Part shown: piece after piece, positions 5,765 to 14,833 of the stretch
Layout of the letters: each line of letters opens with the position of its first letter
Position numbering within the stretch: position 1 is the first letter of the stretch
Assembly: GCA_938003835.1 (NCBI GenBank)
Contig: CALKXJ010000027.1
Location: 62,001 to 126,000 of the forward strand
DNA: 64,000 nucleotides
DNA from: an uncultured Bryobacteraceae bacterium
Lineage (GTDB): Bacteria > Acidobacteriota > Terriglobia > Bryobacterales > Bryobacteraceae
Direction of reading: 5' to 3'
The notes under the pieces: model-generated
What the model saw: only the letters and a program-made list of their open reading frames with translations
What the model was told of the DNA's origin: nothing
Databases searched by the model: none
Position numbers and translations under genes: made by a program

Positions 5765-6799
5765 ATGCCCAAGACGATCGTAACTTTCGGTGAAATCATG
5801 CTCCGGCTGGCCCCGCCCGAATTCGACCGATTCCTGCAACGTCCCGAGTTTCAGGCCACCTGGGGCGGAGGCGAAGCCAACGTCGCCGTTGCGCTCGGCA
5901 GTCTCGGCATGCCGGCGCGCTACGTCACCATTCTGCCGCCCAAAAACCCGCTGGTCGATGCCTTCATCGGCGAGCTGCGCCGCTTCAACGTGGATGCCTC
6001 GGCGATCGTGCGCGCGCCGGGCCGTCTGGGAATTTACTTTGTCGAGCGCGGCGCAAACCAGCGGCCGTCGCTGGTGGTCTATGACCGCGACTACTCGGCT
6101 ATCGCCATGGCCAAGCCCGGGGTGGTGGACTGGAACAAGGCCTTCGACGGGGCGGGCTGGTTCCACATCACCGGCATCACGCCTGCCTTGAGCCAGGGTG
6201 CGGCCGATCTGGCGCTCGAAAGCGTGCGGACCGCCAAGGAGAAGGGCCTGACGGTCTCCTGCGACTTGAACTACCGCAAGAAGCTGTGGAACTACGGCAA
6301 GTCGGCCAAGGAGGTGATGAGCGAGCTGGTGCGCTACGCCGACATCGTCATCGCCAACGAGGAGGACTGCCAGGCGGCGCTCGGCATCGAGGTCGAGGTC
6401 GACGTCGAGTCGGGCAAGCTCGAGACCGAGCAATACCGGCAGTTGACCGAGAAGGTGCTCTCGGCGTTCCCCAACGTGCAGATGATCGCCATCACGTTGC
6501 GCGAATCCTACAGCGCCTCCCACAACGGCTGGTCGGCCTGCCTCAATGACCGGCAGGAGTTTCTCGTCAGCCGCCGCTATGACATCACCGACATCGTCGA
6601 CCGGGTGGGCGGCGGCGACAGCTTTGCCGCGGGTCTCATCTACGGCCTGCTGAACTTGGGTTCGCACCGGGAGGCGCTCGAGTTCGCCGTCGCCGCGTCC
6701 TGCCTGAAGCACTCGGTCTCGGGCGACTTCTTCCGCTTCACCGTGGACGAGGTCAAGGCGCTCATGAAGGGCGGCGGCTCGGGCCGCGTGCAGCGCTGA
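5765..6799 (+). CDS. kdgK: 2-keto-3-deoxygluconate kinase (PfkB family)
   Basis: The 344-residue sugar kinase belongs to the PfkB/ribokinase family. It has the N-terminal T-F-G-E-I-M-L-R-L motif and the sugar-binding [11 protein letters not shown]. The C-terminal anion-hole and catalytic-base motif is [10 protein letters not shown]. The N-terminal wording ([10 protein letters not shown]) is characteristic of 2-keto-3-deoxygluconate kinases, which phosphorylate KDG to KDPG in uronate and pectin breakdown. The oligogalacturonate-lyase-like gene two positions downstream supports that substrate, although other keto-sugars cannot be excluded from sequence alone. Confidence 0.85.
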
Positions 6800-6835
6800 A
6801 ACATTCTTGACAGGCACGCTCCGGGTGGCGGGCTG

Positions 6836-7765
6836 GTGAACACTCCCTCCGGGCGCCGGCGGGCAGGGCTCCTTTATTCGCTGGGGGCGACGCTGCTCTG
6901 GGCGTCGCTTCCCATTGCCCTGAAAGCGCTGGTGGAGGCGATGGATGCTCAGACCATCGCCTGGTATCGCTTCCTGGGGGCCGCGCTCGTCCTGGGCGCG
7001 TATCTCTACCGGCGCCGGGCCTGGCCCTCGCCTGCGGCCTTTCGCGGCTCCGCACTGGTCGCCCTCCTGATCGCCATCATTGGCCTCACCGCCAACAACG
7101 TCGTCTTCGTCCTCGGGCTGGACTTCATCTCGCCCTCGGCAGCGCAGGTGGTGATCCAGCTTGCGCCGATCTTCCTGCTCGTCGGGGCGGTCCTGCTCTT
7201 CGGAGAACGCTTCGACCGCGCGCAGTGGGCCGGTTTCGTGATCCTCATTGCCGGTCTGGCCCTGTTTTTCAACCAGCGACTGGACGAGCTCAGCGTGCGC
7301 TGGACCGGCTACACCACGGGCATCCTGTTCGTGGTCCTCGCCGCGCTGCTCTGGGCGGCCTACGGGCTGGCGCAGAAACAGTTGCTCGGCGCCTTCCGGC
7401 CCGCACCGGTGCTCTGGCTGCTTTATCTGGCCGGCGCCCTGCTGCTGTTGCCTCTGGCCGATCCGGCTCAGGTAGGTTCGCTCGACGGAGTCCGGCTGGC
7501 GCTGCTTGTCTACTGTTCGCTCGCCACCGTGGGCGGCTACGGGAGCTTCGTCGAGGCGATGGTGCACTGGGAAGCCTCCCGGGTGAGCGCCGTCATCGCC
7601 ACCTGTCCCCTGCTCACGGTCGGACTCACCGCCGCTGCGGCGCGCGCCGCGCCCGAGTATGTCCAGCCGGAAAACCTGAACGCTTTGAGCGTTGCGGGCG
7701 CCGCTCTCGTGGTGGTGGGCTCGATCGTCGCGGCGCGCGCGCTGCCGATCCGGACCGGCGCGTGA
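6836..7765 (+). CDS. EamA/DMT-family transporter
   Basis: The 309-residue protein has about ten hydrophobic helices arranged as two EamA repeats (residues about 8-145 and 160-300), as in drug/metabolite transporters. It starts at a GTG at 6836. Its first repeat opens with GATLLWASLPIALKALVEAM. Substrate cannot be predicted. Placed between kdgK and an oligogalacturonate-lyase-like gene, it might move a sugar acid, but that is context only. A TTGACA at 6807-6812 has no convincing -10 partner. Confidence 0.85.
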   Translation: MNTPSGRRRAGLLYSLGATLLWASLPIALKALVEAMDAQTIAWYRFLGAALVLGAYLYRRRAWPSPAAFRGSALVALLIAIIGLTANNVVFVLGLDFISPSAAQVVIQLAPIFLLVGAVLLFGERFDRAQWAGFVILIAGLALFFNQRLDELSVRWTGYTTGILFVVLAALLWAAYGLAQKQLLGAFRPAPVLWLLYLAGALLLLPLADPAQVGSLDGVRLALLVYCSLATVGGYGSFVEAMVHWEASRVSAVIATCPLLTVGLTAAAARAAPEYVQPENLNALSVAGAALVVVGSIVAARALPIRTGA

Positions 7766-7773
7766 AGACGGAG

Positions 7774-7793
7774 CCGGCCGGTATACTGGCCGG
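7774..7793 (+). promoter_or_regulatory. -10 box inside a 20-base palindrome, upstream of the Ogl-like gene
   Basis: TATACT at 7782-7787 is a good -10 box, nine bases before the ATG at 7796. It lies in the centre of a 20-base inverted repeat (CCGGCCGGTA then TACTGGCCGG) in which nine of ten pairs match. A dimeric regulator could bind it and block the promoter. As RNA it could also form a hairpin ending the upstream transporter gene. Confidence 0.45.
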
Positions 7794-7795
7794 AG

Positions 7796-8935
7796 ATGGA
7801 CCAGCCGCAACCAGGAAAGGGACGAATCTATCCGCCCGAGCTCTCGCGTTACCGGGACGCCGCCACCGGGGCCTCGATCTGGCAGCTTACGAATCATCCG
7901 TCGATCAACCACCTCCCCTATTTCCTCTCGAGCGCCTTCACTCCGGACGGCGGAGCGCTGATCTTTACCTCCTACCGGACAGGCAGCGCGCAGCTCTTCG
8001 AGGTCCGGCTTCCGGACGGCGAGATCCGCCAGCTCACGGACGGCGAGCCGATCCACCCCTATTCGCCGGCCCTCGCTCCGAACGGGCAAAGCGTCTTCTT
8101 TGTGCGCGGCGGCTCCATTTGGCGACTGGACCGGAAGACGCTCGAGGAGCAGTGCATTTTCGAATGCGCGGGGGCCCAGCTCGGCGAGTGTACGCTCGAG
8201 ACGGCGGGCGAATGGATCACGGCGGCTTTCAAACGCGGCGCCGAGACGGGACTGGTGACGGGGCGGGCCGACGGTTCCGACTGGCGCCTGATTCCGTTTT
8301 CCCGCACCGTGATCCATCCACAATATCACCCGCTCGATGCCCGATGGCTCGAATTCGCCGCCGATCCCGCGCCGCGGATGTACCGCGTGCGGCGCGACGG
8401 CACCGGTCTCGAGTGCCTCTTCGAGCACGGCCCCGAGGACTGGATCACGCACGAGACCTTCCTCGGCACAACCGGCGATCTGGTGTTCGTGCGCTGGCCC
8501 CGCGCGCTCTACCGGATGGACTGGAGCAGCCGCGCCGTCCGTGCGGTCACCGACTACAAGGTCTGGCACGTGAGCCCCAATCGCGCGGGCACGAAAATCG
8601 TCTGCGACACCAACCACCCCGACGAGGGGCTCTTTGAGATCGATGTGGCCACGGGCGCGCGGCGCCGCATCTGTCTGGCCGAGTCGAGCAATCAGGGCAC
8701 GCAGTGGGCCAAGGACCGTCCGGCCACGGCCGAGGACTTTGCCGCCGCCTGGGGCGGCACACGAGCGGGCGTGCTGAGCTGGCTCGAGGTGCCCGTCGAC
8801 ACCGTGTACGGCCCGCAGTGGACGCATCCGCATCCCTGCTATTCCCCGGACGAGCGCCGCGTCTCCTTCACCAGCGACCGCACGGGCAGGCCGCAGGTCT
8901 ATGTCGCCGACCTTGGGGAGGACCTCTCACCGTGA
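7796..8935 (+). CDS. Oligogalacturonate lyase-like beta-propeller protein
   Basis: The 379-residue protein is built of TolB-like propeller blades (for example SAFTPDGGALIFTS, PALAPNGQSVFFV, CYSPDERRVSFTS). It opens with the G-R-I-Y-P-P-E motif typical of oligogalacturonate lyases. Crystallography of a Yersinia family member places the catalytic manganese on H287, Q350, H353 and H355. Here Q341, H344 and H346 sit in Q-W-T-H-P-H with identical spacing, and H274 is at a fitting distance. This supports a lyase cutting oligogalacturonides or a related oligouronide. No signal peptide is present, so it acts in the cytoplasm. KdgK upstream would act later in the same pathway. Confidence 0.8.
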   Translation: MDQPQPGKGRIYPPELSRYRDAATGASIWQLTNHPSINHLPYFLSSAFTPDGGALIFTSYRTGSAQLFEVRLPDGEIRQLTDGEPIHPYSPALAPNGQSVFFVRGGSIWRLDRKTLEEQCIFECAGAQLGECTLETAGEWITAAFKRGAETGLVTGRADGSDWRLIPFSRTVIHPQYHPLDARWLEFAADPAPRMYRVRRDGTGLECLFEHGPEDWITHETFLGTTGDLVFVRWPRALYRMDWSSRAVRAVTDYKVWHVSPNRAGTKIVCDTNHPDEGLFEIDVATGARRRICLAESSNQGTQWAKDRPATAEDFAAAWGGTRAGVLSWLEVPVDTVYGPQWTHPHPCYSPDERRVSFTSDRTGRPQVYVADLGEDLSP

Positions 8936-9147: not shown

Positions 9148-11391
9148 CTATTCGAGCACGATCACTTCGTGGTCGGCGACCGAGGCGATGCGGATTACGG
9201 CCCACTCGCCCTGCCGGAGGGCGGCGGTCTCGCCTCGCGAGACGAGAAAGCGGGCGCGGCGGCCGCGCACGCCGGCCGGCAGACGAAACCGGATCTGGAC
9301 CGGGCCAACCGGGATGAGCTCGTCGACGGGCGCACGCCAGGCGCCCGTGCTGGTGAGGTTGACGATGTGCAGGATGAGGCGGTCCTGCTGGCGATACAGA
9401 TGACAGTCCAGCAGGCCGGGGCCCCGGACTTCCACCGGCACTCGGCCCCTCACCGCCCAGCGGATCAGGTTGGCCAGCAGGTCGCCGTGGTCGGGCAGGT
9501 TGTCGCGGGCAAATCGCCGGTCGAGATCCGCGGCGAGATACGCCCGGCGCGTGGCCTCCTGAAGCACCAGCGCCGGGATTGCGGTGCGCGGCGTGCGCAT
9601 CCAGGAGAACTCGGGCGGGTAAGCGGGGAAGTGAGGAATCCAGGTGAGTGGGACGATCGTGCCCGGCGCCGCCTCCACTTCGACGAGCAGGCCGCCGAAG
9701 GCGATGACGTCGGTCTTCTCGAAGCCTTCCAGCACGGCGTGGCGCGGGCCGGGCGGGCCTGGTTGCGGCGCGCGCGGGCCATAAACCCCCGGCCCGGCGT
9801 CCGGATGAAGGCGCAGATAGGTGTGGTCCGTGCCCGTCCAGCTCTCGGCTTCGCCGAGCGAGCCGTGCCGCCGGCCCGTGAACCGGACGCCGAAAATCTC
9901 GCCGAGCGCGAAATCCGTGCGAGGCTCGCCCCACCGGTCGCAGAGGCTGGTCTCGCCGGTGGCGATGAGACCGCCGCCGCGGGCGGCATACCGCCGTACC
10001 GCCTCGAGCTGGGCGTCGGTCATCGCGGCGAGATTGGGCAACACCAGAGCGGCCAGCTCGCCTCCGTCACGCTCGATGTGGTCGGCATGCACCGGGAGAT
10101 AGGGGATCCGCGCGCGGACGAGCGCCTGGATGACGCCGTAGTAGGGCCGCGCCACGCGCTCTTCGGCCTCGTCGCGGCCATAGAAGTCGGCGTTGATGTC
10201 CGAGTAGACCACGCCGACGCTCGCCACCGGCCGGCGGTTGACCAGCCAGGCTTCGTTGGCGGCGTGCCATTCAAAGACCGGGCCGGCGGTCTCGAACTGC
10301 CGCCGGTCCGGCTGCCAGGCGCCGACGTGATGCCACCAGGGCTGGATGCCGCCAGCAAAACCGGCATACATCCACATGCGCGCCTCGGCCGGAGCGGCGG
10401 AAGCCTTCCGAAAAGTCGGCGCCCGTTGATAGGTGGCCATGCTTTCCGGCATCAACTTGTCCCAGCCGGCCAGCCCGTGCAGCCGCTTGCCGAGTTCGGC
10501 GTTGCGCTGGAAGCCGGTGGCTTCGTTGCGGCCCTGGTCGTCGAGCAGGATGAATTCCGAACGCTCCGAGATCGCTTTGATGTCGCGGAGACGCCGCCCC
10601 TGCCCGGTCAGGTCGCCGCTCAGCATGCCCACCCAGAGGCAGTCGGGCCCGCCGGCCTGGCGCGTGGTGCGGTTGTTGAGATCCCAGATCTCGAGCCGCC
10701 TCTTCCGGCTCCAGTCGAACCAGGCGCGCCAGATCGGATCGTCCCAGTCCTGGCGCCGGGGAAGCTCGTGACCGGTCGCCTGGCGGAAGCGCTCGCGGCT
10801 CGAAGAGCAGTAGCAGATCTGATCGCGCTCCAGGCCGCTCCAACTGTTGTCGGTGAATCCCTCGGGCCTCTCCCAGGCGATGATCTCGCGCAAAATCGCG
10901 GGTAGGTACTCTTCGTAGTAAGGTCCGTCGATACAGTCGATGTAATGCTCGCCGGCGCGATAGGGGCGGCCTTCGGCGTCGTGCGCAAACCAGTCCGGGT
11001 GGGCGCGGTAGAACTCTTCCGAGGCGCGGTTGGAATCCATTCGCGCCAGCACGGCGAGGCCGTCCTCGTGGGCCGCCCGGGTGAGCTCTCCATACAGGTC
11101 ACGATGCCGGAGGAAGCGGGCGCGGTAGTGGAGCGGATTCGGGCTGGGGTAGAAGGCGACGATTCCGCCGGCGTTGATGATTACACCCTGGACGCGCGTC
11201 CGCTTCCAGTGCGCCCGCCACCAGTCGATGTCGTAGCTGAGCGGGTCCTCCTCGCTGATGTTGGTCTGGCCCCAGCGCAGCGTGCGGCGCCACCAGGGCG
11301 CCTGGCCGCGGGCGTCCGCGGCAGCTAGGAAGCAGCCCGCGACACGCACCAGATCGCGGCGCGTCCAGTCTCCGGTTGGTCGGCGTCTCAT
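9148..11391 (-). CDS. Exported glycoside-hydrolase-like protein with beta-galactosidase trimerisation-like domain
   Basis: The 747-residue protein starts at an ATG whose last bases overlap the stop of the CHAT gene (ATGA). The N-terminus carries a twin-arginine motif (T-R-R-D-L-V-R-V-A-G) and a hydrophobic stretch ending A-R-G-Q-A. Export by Tat is therefore likely. Residues about 40-400 look like a TIM barrel of the hypothetical glycosyl hydrolase 6 kind (VQGVIINAGGIVAFYPSP, LAVLARMDSNRASEEFY, EGFTDNSWSGLERDQICYC). Residues about 410-600 resemble a beta-galactosidase trimerisation/amidotransferase-like domain (VASVGVVYSDINADFYG, GGGLIATGETSLCD). A beta-sandwich tail ends the protein. Substrate is unknown, and the catalytic acids were not assigned. 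Confidence 0.75.
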   Translation of the reverse strand: MRRRPTGDWTRRDLVRVAGCFLAAADARGQAPWWRRTLRWGQTNISEEDPLSYDIDWWRAHWKRTRVQGVIINAGGIVAFYPSPNPLHYRARFLRHRDLYGELTRAAHEDGLAVLARMDSNRASEEFYRAHPDWFAHDAEGRPYRAGEHYIDCIDGPYYEEYLPAILREIIAWERPEGFTDNSWSGLERDQICYCSSSRERFRQATGHELPRRQDWDDPIWRAWFDWSRKRRLEIWDLNNRTTRQAGGPDCLWVGMLSGDLTGQGRRLRDIKAISERSEFILLDDQGRNEATGFQRNAELGKRLHGLAGWDKLMPESMATYQRAPTFRKASAAPAEARMWMYAGFAGGIQPWWHHVGAWQPDRRQFETAGPVFEWHAANEAWLVNRRPVASVGVVYSDINADFYGRDEAEERVARPYYGVIQALVRARIPYLPVHADHIERDGGELAALVLPNLAAMTDAQLEAVRRYAARGGGLIATGETSLCDRWGEPRTDFALGEIFGVRFTGRRHGSLGEAESWTGTDHTYLRLHPDAGPGVYGPRAPQPGPPGPRHAVLEGFEKTDVIAFGGLLVEVEAAPGTIVPLTWIPHFPAYPPEFSWMRTPRTAIPALVLQEATRRAYLAADLDRRFARDNLPDHGDLLANLIRWAVRGRVPVEVRGPGLLDCHLYRQQDRLILHIVNLTSTGAWRAPVDELIPVGPVQIRFRLPAGVRGRRARFLVSRGETAALRQGEWAVIRIASVADHEVIVLE

Positions 11392-13301
11392 TGACTCGCG
11401 GCGGGATCGGGGGAAGTGGCTGCCGGTCGCAGCGCCTCGAGGGCGCGCTGCGCCAGCTCGCGCCACTCTTGACGATCCCACCAGTCAAGATACCGCCTGA
11501 ACTGCCGTTCGGTGGACTGCACGTGAAAAGAGTCCGGCCCCATCAGCCCGATGATCTGCTCGCAGTGGTGCGCGATGGCGGCCAGGGCCTTTTTCGGAGA
11601 GAACGGGCGCTGGTGGTAGCTGGCGAGCAGTTCGAGCTCGGCCAGCGAGCCATGCGCCCAGGCGCGCGTGGAGGCGTCGGCGCGCTTGAGATCGCTCGCC
11701 GCCCAGCCTCGCGTGGCTGCCCACAGATCCGGCTCGGGTCTGCCGCTGAGCACAGCGGTCAGCGACAGGTATTGCGTTGCCGTCCAGTGCGATTGTGTGC
11801 CCTGATCCATCGCCAGCGCGTAGGCGGCGCGGGCCTCGCGCAAGGCACGTTCGGCCTTCTCGCGCGCGCCTCTGCGGAAATAGAGCTCGGCCTTGCGCTT
11901 GTGACTGGCGCCGTGAAGCCCGTAGCATTCGGCCTTGAGTTCTCGCGACGGCAGGCTGTCATCCTCCGGCAATAACGCTTTCCAGCGCGCCAGGTGCCGG
12001 TCGGCTTCCGCAAGCGCCCGCTCCATCTGGTCGAGATCGGACTGCTCGGCCGCCCAGTCGAAAGCGACGTTGATGGCGCGGCGCATCTGCTCCTCGCGGA
12101 AGAGGCTCACCTGGCGGTCGAAGCCTTCGGGAAGCGAGGCGTAGGCCACGATGCTGGCCCAGTCGTGATAAACGCCGGCGGCGGTGAACAGGCGCTGGCG
12201 CAGGTCCTGGAGCACCAGGCGCGGGTCGTCGCCGAGCAGCAGGCGCTCGTAGAGCACCTCGACGGCGATGACCGAGCCGAGTTTGGTGAGCGGGAACTGC
12301 GAGGCGATCACCCACGGGATACCGGCCGCGTGGAGGTCGTGCGCGATGCTTGCCCCGGGCACCAGCACCGAGCCCACGGCGCCCGAATCGCAAGTGGCCA
12401 GAGTCACCACCGAGGGCTGCGACTGCCCCCGTCCGTCGGCCCGCACGGCGCGCAAGGCCTGCGCCAGGCGCTTGCCCTCGACAATCTCGGCCCGGCTCCG
12501 GTCACGCGGGCCGGCCAGGGCCAGGCCGAAGCGCTGCTCGCCCGCCTGCTCGTAGGCGACTCCATGGGCCAGGATGTGCACGTGCGTGTAGTCGGATGCG
12601 GCGCAAGCACGCCGGATGTCCTCGAGCGTCGCTTCGGGGAGGACCGTGAGGTGGTCCTTGATGAGCGGCAGGCGCTGCTCGGGCGTGGCGGCCCGGCGAA
12701 TCCACGGCTCGAGCGCCATGCGCAGGGCGTGCGTGTGCTCGCGATACGGCACCGCCGTCCCGCCGGGCGCGGCGAAGGCGAACAGCAGCCGCGGCGTCCG
12801 GTTCCATTCAACCGGCAGCGGCCGGCCGCGGCGAATCTCCCGCGTGAGCGTGATCGGCGCGCTGGCCTGCAACTGAAGCTCGAGCCGCTCGCCGGGAAAG
12901 CCCTGCGGAGCGTTGGCCAGCTCGAACGGGATCAGGGCCAGCTCGGAGCCCGAAAGCGCCAGCCGGAGATGGATCAGCCGGGGTCGGCTGCCGCTCGCCT
13001 CGGAAATCTCGGCCGTCAGCGTCGGGATCTCCGCGAGAATGCGCGCCACTTCGGCGCCGAGCTCCTGGAGTTCGGCCACGCGCATGCGCTCGGGGATCAC
13101 CGCCCGGCCGCCTTCCGTGACGTAGCGCAACCGCTCGAGGCGATTGAGCAACTGGTGGTGCTCGAACTGGATGCGGAAGGTTACCGGGCTGCCCTCCCCG
13201 CAAAGAGCCAGGTACGGCGTCAGGGGCGAAAGCAACTGGTTATGGGGCGGGCCGGTCCGAAGGATTTCGAGCACCACGGTGTGTATGGCGGTCACGCTCA
13301 C
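11388..13301 (-). CDS. CHAT-domain (caspase-like) protease with helical repeat C-terminus
   Basis: The 637-residue protein holds a CHAT caspase-fold domain at residues about 170-400. The catalytic histidine is H246 in H-I-L-A-H-G and the cysteine is C304 in T-L-A-T-C-D-S-G, at a typical separation. Residues 1-160 are a poorly conserved N-terminal domain (LALIPFELANAPQGFPG marks its end). Residues about 400-637 are TPR-like helices that may bind a partner or sense a signal. CHAT proteases act in programmed proteolysis, for example in gasdermin-linked and CRISPR-linked defence. It starts with a GTG overlapping the stop of the upstream metallophosphoesterase and overlaps the downstream gene likewise. 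Substrate is unknown. Confidence 0.88.
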   Translation of the reverse strand: MSVTAIHTVVLEILRTGPPHNQLLSPLTPYLALCGEGSPVTFRIQFEHHQLLNRLERLRYVTEGGRAVIPERMRVAELQELGAEVARILAEIPTLTAEISEASGSRPRLIHLRLALSGSELALIPFELANAPQGFPGERLELQLQASAPITLTREIRRGRPLPVEWNRTPRLLFAFAAPGGTAVPYREHTHALRMALEPWIRRAATPEQRLPLIKDHLTVLPEATLEDIRRACAASDYTHVHILAHGVAYEQAGEQRFGLALAGPRDRSRAEIVEGKRLAQALRAVRADGRGQSQPSVVTLATCDSGAVGSVLVPGASIAHDLHAAGIPWVIASQFPLTKLGSVIAVEVLYERLLLGDDPRLVLQDLRQRLFTAAGVYHDWASIVAYASLPEGFDRQVSLFREEQMRRAINVAFDWAAEQSDLDQMERALAEADRHLARWKALLPEDDSLPSRELKAECYGLHGASHKRKAELYFRRGAREKAERALREARAAYALAMDQGTQSHWTATQYLSLTAVLSGRPEPDLWAATRGWAASDLKRADASTRAWAHGSLAELELLASYHQRPFSPKKALAAIAHHCEQIIGLMGPDSFHVQSTERQFRRYLDWWDRQEWRELAQRALEALRPAATSPDPAASQ

Positions 13302-14833
13302 CTCCGGCGGAATTCCGAGCCGGGCACGGGCTCGAGTTCAACCTCACCCGAGGCGTTGTCCACGGCGTGGTAGAGGCGGCCAATGACGCCGTCGGATTCA
13401 GCGGAGATTCCCACTACCGTCGTGCGGTCGAGCAGCAGGGGGCGGGTGCCGCCGGCGGGCGCCGGAACCACAGCCGCGTCGAGCGCCGCCATCGAGCGGG
13501 CCTGGAGGGCCTCGTAGACCCGAGCGAAAACACCCGGATCGGAGACGAGATCCTCGGAGAGCTGCAAGATGCGCACCCAGGTGCCGCTGTTGTAGTAGTA
13601 GCGCCCGCCGCCGGGCTCGACCTCGATGGCGCGCTCCATGTGGGTGTGTCCGGTGATGACAAAGTCGACGCCCGGGCCGACGCGCTCCATGACGCTGCGG
13701 AACGTGTGATCGCGCGTCGTGATGTCGAAGCTGCGGTCGTCCTTGATCCAGTCCAGGATTGCGCGGCGCAGGGCCTCCTCCTTGGGGACGCCTTGCAGGC
13801 GGTCGATGATCATGTCCCACCAGCCGAGCTGGCCTTCGACGGCTTCGCGGCTGGCGGCCTCGGAGGCGCTCCGGCCACGGCGCACGTCCTCTTCGATTTC
13901 AAGCAGCAGGGCGTCAGCGTCCGGGCCGGGAGCCGGAGCGCCGATCGCTTCGCGCAGGCTGGCGCCGAGTAGTTCCTCCATGGCCGCGGCGGCCGCGGCT
14001 TCCGGCGGGGCAGCTTCGAGGTCGCGGGCATCGGCTGCGAGCAGCCCGCGTTTGATCAGCTCGCCGCGGAGGCGGTCGGTGACGACCGGCAGCCCGTCGC
14101 GGACGGCCTTCACTGCCGCCGGATCGATGGTCAACAGGACCGCGAAGACGCTGTTCGCCTCGGGCTTGAGCAGGTCAATGAACGGATTGCGCCGCTTGAC
14201 CGGGTTCATGACGTCGATGACGAAGCGAGTGCCGGCGTTGGGCGTCCAGGAGGCACGGTCAAAGGCCAGCCCGGCGTTCAGGCGCGCGGCCAGTCGCCGC
14301 AGCGCTTCGTGATCGACGACGTTCCAGCCGTCCACCTCATTGCCATGGGTGCAGAAGACGCGTGCCGGGCCGACCTGGCAGGCGAAGCCCGCGCCCCGGG
14401 TGGCGAACAGCAGCCGTCCTTCGGCCGCCGGGTCCCCGCCGGCCAGGCGCCGCCGCACGGAGAGCTCGACATGGGGCAGGGCCAGCTCGATGTCGTGGTT
14501 TCCCAACCCGATCACCAGATACCGGCGCGGCCTACGCACAAACTCGGCCAGCCCGTCCCAGACGGGCCGAAAGGCCGGGTCGGCATAGATGCGCTCCATC
14601 ATCGTCTCGGCGCGGTCGACGGCGAGATAGCCGTCGATCTCCTCGGCGAGCGAATCGATCACGTCGCCGTTGAGGACGAGAGCGACCTCGCGGTCCGGCT
14701 CTTCGCGCGCCAGCCGCCCGAGCAGGCTTGCCAGGCGCCGGCCCTGTTTGAAGATCTGGAAACCCGGGGGCCCGCCCAGATGCAGGTCGGAGATGACATA
14801 GAGCGCGTCAAAGCGCACCAGCGGCAAATTCAC
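13298..14833 (-). CDS. Metallophosphoesterase (calcineurin-like), first gene of the CHAT operon
   Basis: The 511-residue protein has the complete two-metal signature: D16 and H18 in I-S-D-L-H-L-G, D57 in N-G-D-V-I-D, N112-H113-D114 in G-N-H-D, H163 in C-T-H-G-N-E-V-D, and H396/H398 in G-H-T-H. About 230 residues separate H163 from G-H-T-H, much more than in minimal family members. That insertion is helical and alanine/glutamate rich. A C-terminal extension of about 100 residues follows. The reaction is phosphoester hydrolysis, but the substrate (nucleic acid, nucleotide, lipid or protein) cannot be read from sequence. Its stop overlaps the GTG start of the CHAT gene. Confidence 0.87.
   Translation of the reverse strand: MNLPLVRFDALYVISDLHLGGPPGFQIFKQGRRLASLLGRLAREEPDREVALVLNGDVIDSLAEEIDGYLAVDRAETMMERIYADPAFRPVWDGLAEFVRRPRRYLVIGLGNHDIELALPHVELSVRRRLAGGDPAAEGRLLFATRGAGFACQVGPARVFCTHGNEVDGWNVVDHEALRRLAARLNAGLAFDRASWTPNAGTRFVIDVMNPVKRRNPFIDLLKPEANSVFAVLLTIDPAAVKAVRDGLPVVTDRLRGELIKRGLLAADARDLEAAPPEAAAAAAMEELLGASLREAIGAPAPGPDADALLLEIEEDVRRGRSASEAASREAVEGQLGWWDMIIDRLQGVPKEEALRRAILDWIKDDRSFDITTRDHTFRSVMERVGPGVDFVITGHTHMERAIEVEPGGGRYYYNSGTWVRILQLSEDLVSDPGVFARVYEALQARSMAALDAAVVPAPAGGTRPLLLDRTTVVGISAESDGVIGRLYHAVDNASGEVELEPVPGSEFRRR

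Follow-up and report, generated by a model that had tools for sequence, protein, structure and literature searches.

The subject of this analysis is a gene pair in a 64,000-nucleotide stretch of DNA (the window) from an uncultured Bryobacteraceae bacterium (contig CALKXJ010000027.1, positions 62,001 to 126,000; assembly GCA_938003835.1). A metallophosphoesterase (MPE) gene (13298..14833; 511 amino acids, calcineurin-like fold, metal-site motifs intact) lies there directly upstream of a gene for a CHAT caspase-like protease with a C-terminal TPR-S half (11388..13295; 637 amino acids counted from GTG 13301); both genes, and all features placed within them, are on the minus strand. Among related loci, 75 have room for a gene after the MPE, and in 66 of them the very next gene encodes a protease; we are nearly certain that the two form a conserved functional pair. 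A role in biological conflict or defence is probable. That the MPE would be activated by its protease, a reading by analogy, could go either way, and we put at about even the chances of the fuller scheme, a two-gene module of the abortive-infection type in which we infer both phage defence and cleavage of a variable MPE insert by the protease.

A phosphoesterase gene directly upstream of two classes of protease

A scan of public contigs with four MPEs retrieved 87 relatives, from which 80 loci were kept (related public loci carry L0xx or L1xx codes). Downstream DNA is available in 75 of these loci, the other five ending within or just after the MPE. A CHAT homologue lies directly 3' of the MPE in 40 of the 75, with broken frames in L041, L045 and L053, and a trypsin-like protease takes this position in 26 of the 35 remaining loci with room; in L085, the trypsin-like protease is 2.3 kb from the MPE. 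No match to the trypsin queries was found at any CHAT locus of this set. Pfam lists Trypsin_2 for 13 of 20 downstream proteins scanned, with L061 and L081 falling below its cut-off and the results for L057 and L063 covering the best 25 families; the remaining trypsin calls rest on phmmer similarity to those N-termini. A GxSG-like serine motif is present in 25 of the 27 trypsin-like partners, among which are fusions to TIR plus TPR-S, TPR-S alone, EAD1, nSTAND1 with or without WD40, or NACHT with HEAT and TPR. The partner in L015 shows PADLOC similarity to Avs1b, LmuA and RT-Protease. Three myxococcal MPEs (L086, L087 and L091) are followed by an open reading frame (ORF) of about 510 amino acids without a Pfam match, possibly another type of partner. 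An apparent MPE-CHAT fusion in L138 was rejected: a long ORF there runs across the two genes, yet MPE and CHAT match in different frames, which we take as the mark of a shadow ORF. A search for a conserved third gene around the CHAT pairs (ORFs of at least 90 amino acids within 4 kb) gave no widely shared cluster, and the largest cluster of directly adjacent same-strand ORFs is common to Paraburkholderia records.

The original prediction had proposed searching genomes for the MPE-CHAT pair. That search, run here, places the pair well outside close relatives of the organism, with its order kept in six phyla by record titles (Pseudomonadota, Planctomycetota, Myxococcota, Thermodesulfobacteriota, Bacteroidota and Acidobacteriota). 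The MPE tree has 77 rows, 42 of them in the CHAT clade; 41 of these have CHAT directly 3', while the contig of the remaining one (L042) ends. A single change on the tree suffices to separate CHAT from trypsin labels. Distances among MPEs and among CHATs, compared over 35 pairs, are strongly correlated (Mantel r 0.91, against 0.38 for the best of 2000 permutations). Among 101 relatives, only four carry the MPE, namely the window's genome and members of three other genera of its family; two of these have CHAT and one has a trypsin-TIR-TPR-S partner. A full-length CHAT match occurs in two of 297 Acidobacteriota genomes, both times beside an MPE, with partial and weaker matches in five others; four further genomes carry a weaker MPE without this CHAT, trypsin partners being unexamined there. 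In 235 genomes of Myxococcota, the phylum of L051, there are five CHAT matches at 1e-30, four of them with the MPE adjacent and the fifth beginning 411 bases from its contig start. MPE matches at 1e-15 occur in 41 of these genomes, and all four under 1e-100 have CHAT. The MPE and CHAT are thus co-inherited and patchily distributed.

The pair has apparently been transferred between phyla. Phylum membership needs 25 changes on the MPE tree, where the window MPE groups with Thermodesulfobacteriota and Pseudomonadota rows and not with those of Bryobacterales. Foreign base composition was not seen in the window pair, whose GC contents (0.69 for MPE, 0.70 for CHAT) resemble those of its neighbours, so transfer is argued from the tree only. 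MPE-CHAT pairs are also plasmid-borne, on a Methylobacterium plasmid of 37.6 kb and on megaplasmids of Paraburkholderia; phage records, searched with the MPE only, gave no match. On the Methylobacterium plasmid (NZ_CP099612.1; L096:9186-14084), the pair has beside it an opposite-strand cluster made up of a gene of CARF type, a methyltransferase of Dam type and another metallophosphoesterase. Two metagenome-assembled genomes (MAGs), titled Elusimicrobia (L063) and Rokubacteria (L082), have nearly identical MPEs, pointing to recent transfer or binning contamination.

Defence genes adjoin several related pairs. About nine of the 65 nearest ORFs of CHAT pairs match PADLOC models at 1e-12, against two of 65 near genes of the GHL6 family, to which the third gene of the window belongs (Fisher p 0.027); the nine is a tally of distinct members from per-family PADLOC counts, and the neighbour ORFs, of at least 200 amino acids, were picked by length, so that some may be spurious. 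The families are subtilase (three), metallo-beta-lactamase (MBL) nuclease (two), bacterial gasdermin (bGSDM), RdrB, JetD and ThsB. In a Myxococcales MAG (L051:6059-10593), bGSDM, MPE and CHAT form an operon-like run on one strand, with the bGSDM (PADLOC E 1.2e-72) about 21 bases before the MPE ORF. An MBL nuclease of the LmuA/Avs1a/RTasMBL family precedes the MPE ORF of another MPE-CHAT pair by 15 bases (L058:5774-10475), and its relative follows CHAT by about 60 bases on the other strand in L050. The CHAT of this clade can therefore sit with effector families known to be protease-activated. The bGSDM query matches only L051 among the loci searched, and no gasdermin lies beside the window pair. 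In two further loci, a partial ORF resembling the RADAR adenosine deaminase RdrB overlaps the start of the MPE ORF (L052:1-2960), and the MPE ORF of another MPE-CHAT pair is preceded, at a distance of about 25 bases, by the end of a TIR-NACHT-TPR protein (L017:3968-6976).

The first reading of the DNA had suggested a regulated-proteolysis or defence module, and this idea gains partial support from the trypsin, TIR, TPR-S and STAND partners and from the bGSDM, MBL nuclease and RdrB beside single copies. Its first half could also stand alone: the pair might serve regulated proteolysis or developmental cell death in environmental bacteria and do nothing against phages. Systems predicted to act in conflict and cell death have been described in multicellular bacteria, and they contain caspase-like, trypsin, TIR, TPR and STAND parts (PMC7159879, PMC8195603); the scanned neighbours of the window pair are not defence genes. 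Against a role without phage defence stand the patchy and mobile spread, including the 37.6-kb plasmid with its CARF gene and DNA methyltransferase, the defence genes adjoining other copies, and the 25 phylum changes on the MPE tree; we consider that role improbable.

A candidate cleavage site in the phosphoesterase insert

Both proteins keep their catalytic residues, as had been claimed from the letters alone. The MPE matches PF00149 (E 1.7e-7; 32.3 bits against a Pfam cut-off of 21.5), and D16, H18, D57, N112, H113, H163, H396 and H398 are invariant in all 36 aligned MPEs, L050, L051 and L058 included. A larger alignment of 41 CHAT-linked and 27 trypsin-linked rows keeps the metal ligands checked with few exceptions, consisting of gaps in a few CHAT-linked rows and H396/H398 in one trypsin-linked row. 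The core of the predicted structure (mean model confidence, pLDDT, 84.9) is LpxH-like by structure comparison (Z 17.4, 3.7 A, 210 residues). A comparison of the MPE with NCBIfam, whose LpxH content was left unchecked, found nothing at E 0.1, and one with PADLOC 2.0.0 found nothing at E 1. The protease matches PF12770 (CHAT; E 2e-23, 83.7 bits against a cut-off of 24) and, marginally, PF20308 (TPR-S; E 2.4e-6, 28.5 bits against 27.6) over residues 425-514 (11760..12029), counting from GTG 13301. Its catalytic His246 (12564..12566) and Cys304 (12390..12392) are invariant in 38 of 38 aligned CHATs. Residues 5-391 of its model (pLDDT 91.7) align with Craspase TPR-CHAT (Z 23.8, 3.6 A, 302 residues) and with separase (Z 21.8, 4.0 A, 308 residues), and residues 165-402 with SAVED-CHAT (Z 21.3, 2.7 A, 196 residues); a match to the central regulatory region of ASK1 (Z 12.8, 3.9 A, 198 residues) is possibly a chance match of helical repeats. 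The PADLOC SAVED_CHAT model covers the protein over profile positions 35-268 of 498 only, and Pfam finds CHAT and TPR-S in it and no SAVED domain. In sequence searches of solved structures, the best E values were 0.031 for the MPE and 0.057 for CHAT.

Structure model and alignment place a long insert in the MPE between metal motifs IV (H163) and V (G395-H398), at about residues 176-390 (13664..14308, limits approximate). It is a family trait: HGN and GHTH lie 210-253 residues apart in 41 MPEs linked to CHAT and 201-266 residues apart in 26 linked to trypsin. Within it, residues 262-340 (13814..14050) are variable in the alignment and modelled with low confidence, with pLDDT below 50 at 265-272, 298-306 and 328-338. 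Column 265, at the edge of this stretch, holds Leu in all 41 CHAT-linked MPEs and Ile in 22 of the 27 trypsin-linked ones; it is mixed in nine MPEs without an assigned protease, among which the truncated L042 has Leu. Leu265 (14039..14041) is accordingly our first predicted cut site, and the segment around it is the top-scoring one of its protein in 31 of 41 leave-one-out scans. Leu336 (13826..13828), kept in 40 of 41 CHAT-linked MPEs, is a weaker candidate because it falls in a modelled helix, where a Leu could be structural. In the loop region (residues 255-345), the 27 trypsin-linked MPEs contain 39 G-x-[DE]-[IM] motifs against 2.7 expected from shuffles, carried by 13 of the 27 rows; there are four in the rest of these proteins and one in the 41 CHAT-linked loops. 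Self-processing of the trypsin-like proteases at such motifs was considered and rejected, since the narrower GxDI-type form is not enriched in 26 partner proteases (three seen, 3.7 expected).

The mechanism we propose is modelled on the trypsin-like HamA protease, which activates the MBL pro-nuclease HamM by cutting after two conserved isoleucines in disordered insertions (PMC12799240). The MPE would be made as a restrained pro-enzyme. Infection would be sensed, perhaps by the TPR-S half of the window protease and, where the protease is trypsin-like, by its TIR, STAND or TPR-S parts, and the protease would then cut the variable insert between motifs IV and V after Leu265, perhaps also after Leu336. 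Cleavage would open the active site, and the opened MPE would destroy nucleic acid, a nucleotide or a related phosphoester, leading to cell arrest or death. Single loci may add further substrates such as a gasdermin or an MBL nuclease, and the downstream GHL6 gene would play no part. Stated in full, the MPE would be a protease-gated pro-phosphoesterase and a further class of proteolytically unleashed immune effector, with CHAT cutting after Leu265 (perhaps also after Leu336) and the trypsin-TIR, -STAND or -TPR-S proteases after an Ile in the same place, often within repeated GxDI motifs; its chances seem to us a shade below even.

The alternative that the MPE is itself a sensor or brake has to be weighed here. 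It would hydrolyse or bind a nucleotide or nucleic-acid signal and so hold CHAT off, the protease acting on other cell proteins or on the optional gasdermin or MBL nuclease. Such a role would suit the constancy of the MPE, beside which gasdermin (one locus) and MBL nuclease (two loci) are rare extras, its retention of catalytic residues next to them (L050, L051 and L058), and a core fold matching enzymes of small phosphoesters such as LpxH. It leaves unexplained, however, the invariant Leu265, the repeated GxDI-type motifs in the variable insert, and a conserved residue that depends on protease class, and we regard it as unlikely, though less so than a module without an anti-phage role.

Several observations weigh against a protease-gated MPE with a part in defence. 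Eight of the 75 MPE loci with room have neither protease, and the weaker MPE matches in the Acidobacteriota and Myxococcota sets are mostly unexamined for a protease partner. GxDI-type motifs are missing from 14 of the 27 trypsin-linked loops, the count of 39 is inflated by related rows, and the identity of column 265 depends on the alignment in the trypsin-linked and no-protease groups. The CHAT cut-site profile finds no significant site in bGSDM (shuffle fraction 0.17) or in the MBL proteins (0.07 and 0.64); a VLSAAED stretch close to the C-terminal end of the bGSDM in L051 is no more than suggestive. A conserved block at residues 201-240 lies inside the insert, which is therefore not just a gate. 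L051 and L058 keep a catalytically intact MPE beside another likely pro-effector, which may mean that the MPE is not an exchangeable effector but a regulator at the core of the module. The neighbour enrichment (nine against two) is modest, with a control from one phylum and subtilases that are generic, and the seven window neighbours scanned with Pfam are housekeeping, sugar or unknown genes, none of them a defence gene.

Gene junctions and the glycosidase-like neighbour

The coordinates first read for the three minus-strand ORFs agree with the sequence. The accompanying claim of a four-base overlap at both junctions holds for one of them: ATGA is present at 11391-11388, between the CHAT stop and the start of the third gene, whereas the GTGA at 13301-13298, though its letters are there, probably reflects a mis-called start. 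A Shine-Dalgarno-like GGAGG (13301..13305) at the end of the MPE gene stands directly against GTG 13301, and 5 bases upstream of an in-frame GTG at 13295, and the consensus of 38 aligned CHATs starts within a few residues of the latter. Because of this spacing and consensus, we prefer 13295 as the likely CHAT start, which would leave a 2-base gap and no overlap with the MPE gene. Of 40 relatives, 38 have their first in-frame start for CHAT at -14 to +52 bases of the MPE stop (the scan spanned about -13 to +160); the other two, in which no start was found, have broken CHAT frames. Overlaps of four bases are common in bacteria and by themselves say little; more telling is that MPE and CHAT keep their order from phylum to phylum.

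The pair is flanked by a DksA/TraR-type gene on one side and by the GHL6 glycosidase-like gene (9148..11391, minus strand) on the other. The latter matches PF14871 (E 5.7e-13), and its protein, put forward as Tat-exported in the first reading, carries TRRDLV near the N-terminus. The original prediction had joined it to the pair in one three-gene operon, in which an exported glycosidase would work with the MPE and CHAT. The ATGA overlap with the CHAT stop does make co-transcription plausible in this strain. Yet the GHL6 query matched no ORF in the DNA of the MPE loci (phmmer) other than its own in the window, while 52 of 101 relatives have GHL6 homologues (paralogues counted), with a near full-length copy at 55-64% identity in 15 genomes besides the window's. 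The flanks of nine close homologues contain neither MPE nor CHAT, one of these contigs ending close to the gene. GHL6 was accordingly rejected as a member of the module; a three-gene system is very improbable, and we judge the gene to be an incidental neighbour. A carbohydrate role fits it because PfkB kinase, EamA transporter and oligogalacturonate-lyase-like genes (5765-8935, plus strand) face it tail to tail.

Relation to known protease-effector systems

The closest likeness is to the gated MBL pro-nuclease/protease pairs of Hachiman, AVAST, Lamassu and DRT (PMC12799240). They share with the present pair an enzyme gene directly upstream of the protease gene and conserved hydrophobic residues in a variable insert, and related MPE loci likewise have a trypsin-like protease N-terminal to TIR, STAND or TPR-S. 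They differ in that the MPE is a calcineurin-fold phosphoesterase (PF00149, LpxH-like fold) rather than an MBL nuclease, with cleavage a prediction here, and in that the window protease is CHAT, trypsin-like partners occurring in 27 related loci. The main text of that paper does not contain the words 'phosphoesterase', 'calcineurin' or 'CHAT'. Its Canu caspase-nuclease systems also combine a caspase-family protease with a hydrolase, and contain TPRs; there, however, an MBL nuclease lies downstream of the caspase, alongside CanB and Ig-like folds, whereas the hydrolase of the present pair, the MPE, precedes its protease, and TPR-S is attached to CHAT.

Bacterial gasdermin and CARD-NLR operons likewise set a protease beside a presumed pro-effector, and L051 has the order bGSDM-MPE-CHAT; other CARD-NLR variants replace gasdermins with phospholipases or endonucleases (PMC13236601). 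No gasdermin, however, accompanies the window pair or any searched locus except L051, and the constant partner is the MPE. Craspase TPR-CHAT (Csx29) and SAVED-CHAT appear to share the CHAT protease fold, judging by predicted-structure matches, but Csx29 aligns from its residue 397 on whereas TPR-S lies after CHAT in the window protein, Pfam finds no SAVED domain in the latter, and its gene partner is the MPE. MoxR-vWA, GTPase-centred and TRADD-N conflict systems (PMC7159879, PMC8195603) also employ calcineurin-like domains of this fold superfamily, alongside trypsin, caspase, TIR and EAD parts. There the domain is described as a variable effector domain of a larger system, in contrast to the separate and constant gene upstream of a protease described here.

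The fold superfamily and the protease families are thus already known in conflict systems (PMC7159879, PMC8195603, PMC10907252). We found no description in the open literature of a separate MPE gene upstream of CHAT or trypsin proteases, a prior mention being possible, and the new part is a candidate effector class, the MPE, within protease-effector pairs. According to PMC12799240, proteolytic activation in antiviral immunity may extend to other enzyme classes, and the hallmarks to search for are co-evolution with a protease and active-site-blocking insertions. In the MPE family, the enzyme is inherited together with its protease and carries an insert between metal motifs; its fold is a different one, many phyla are represented, and the proteases belong to two unrelated classes. 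The comparison supplies exact residues for mutation. If the proposed gating is true, the MPE would be a new executioner enzyme in bacterial programmed cell death, and the family would amount to a natural experiment, its predicted cut-site residue varying with the class of the protease.

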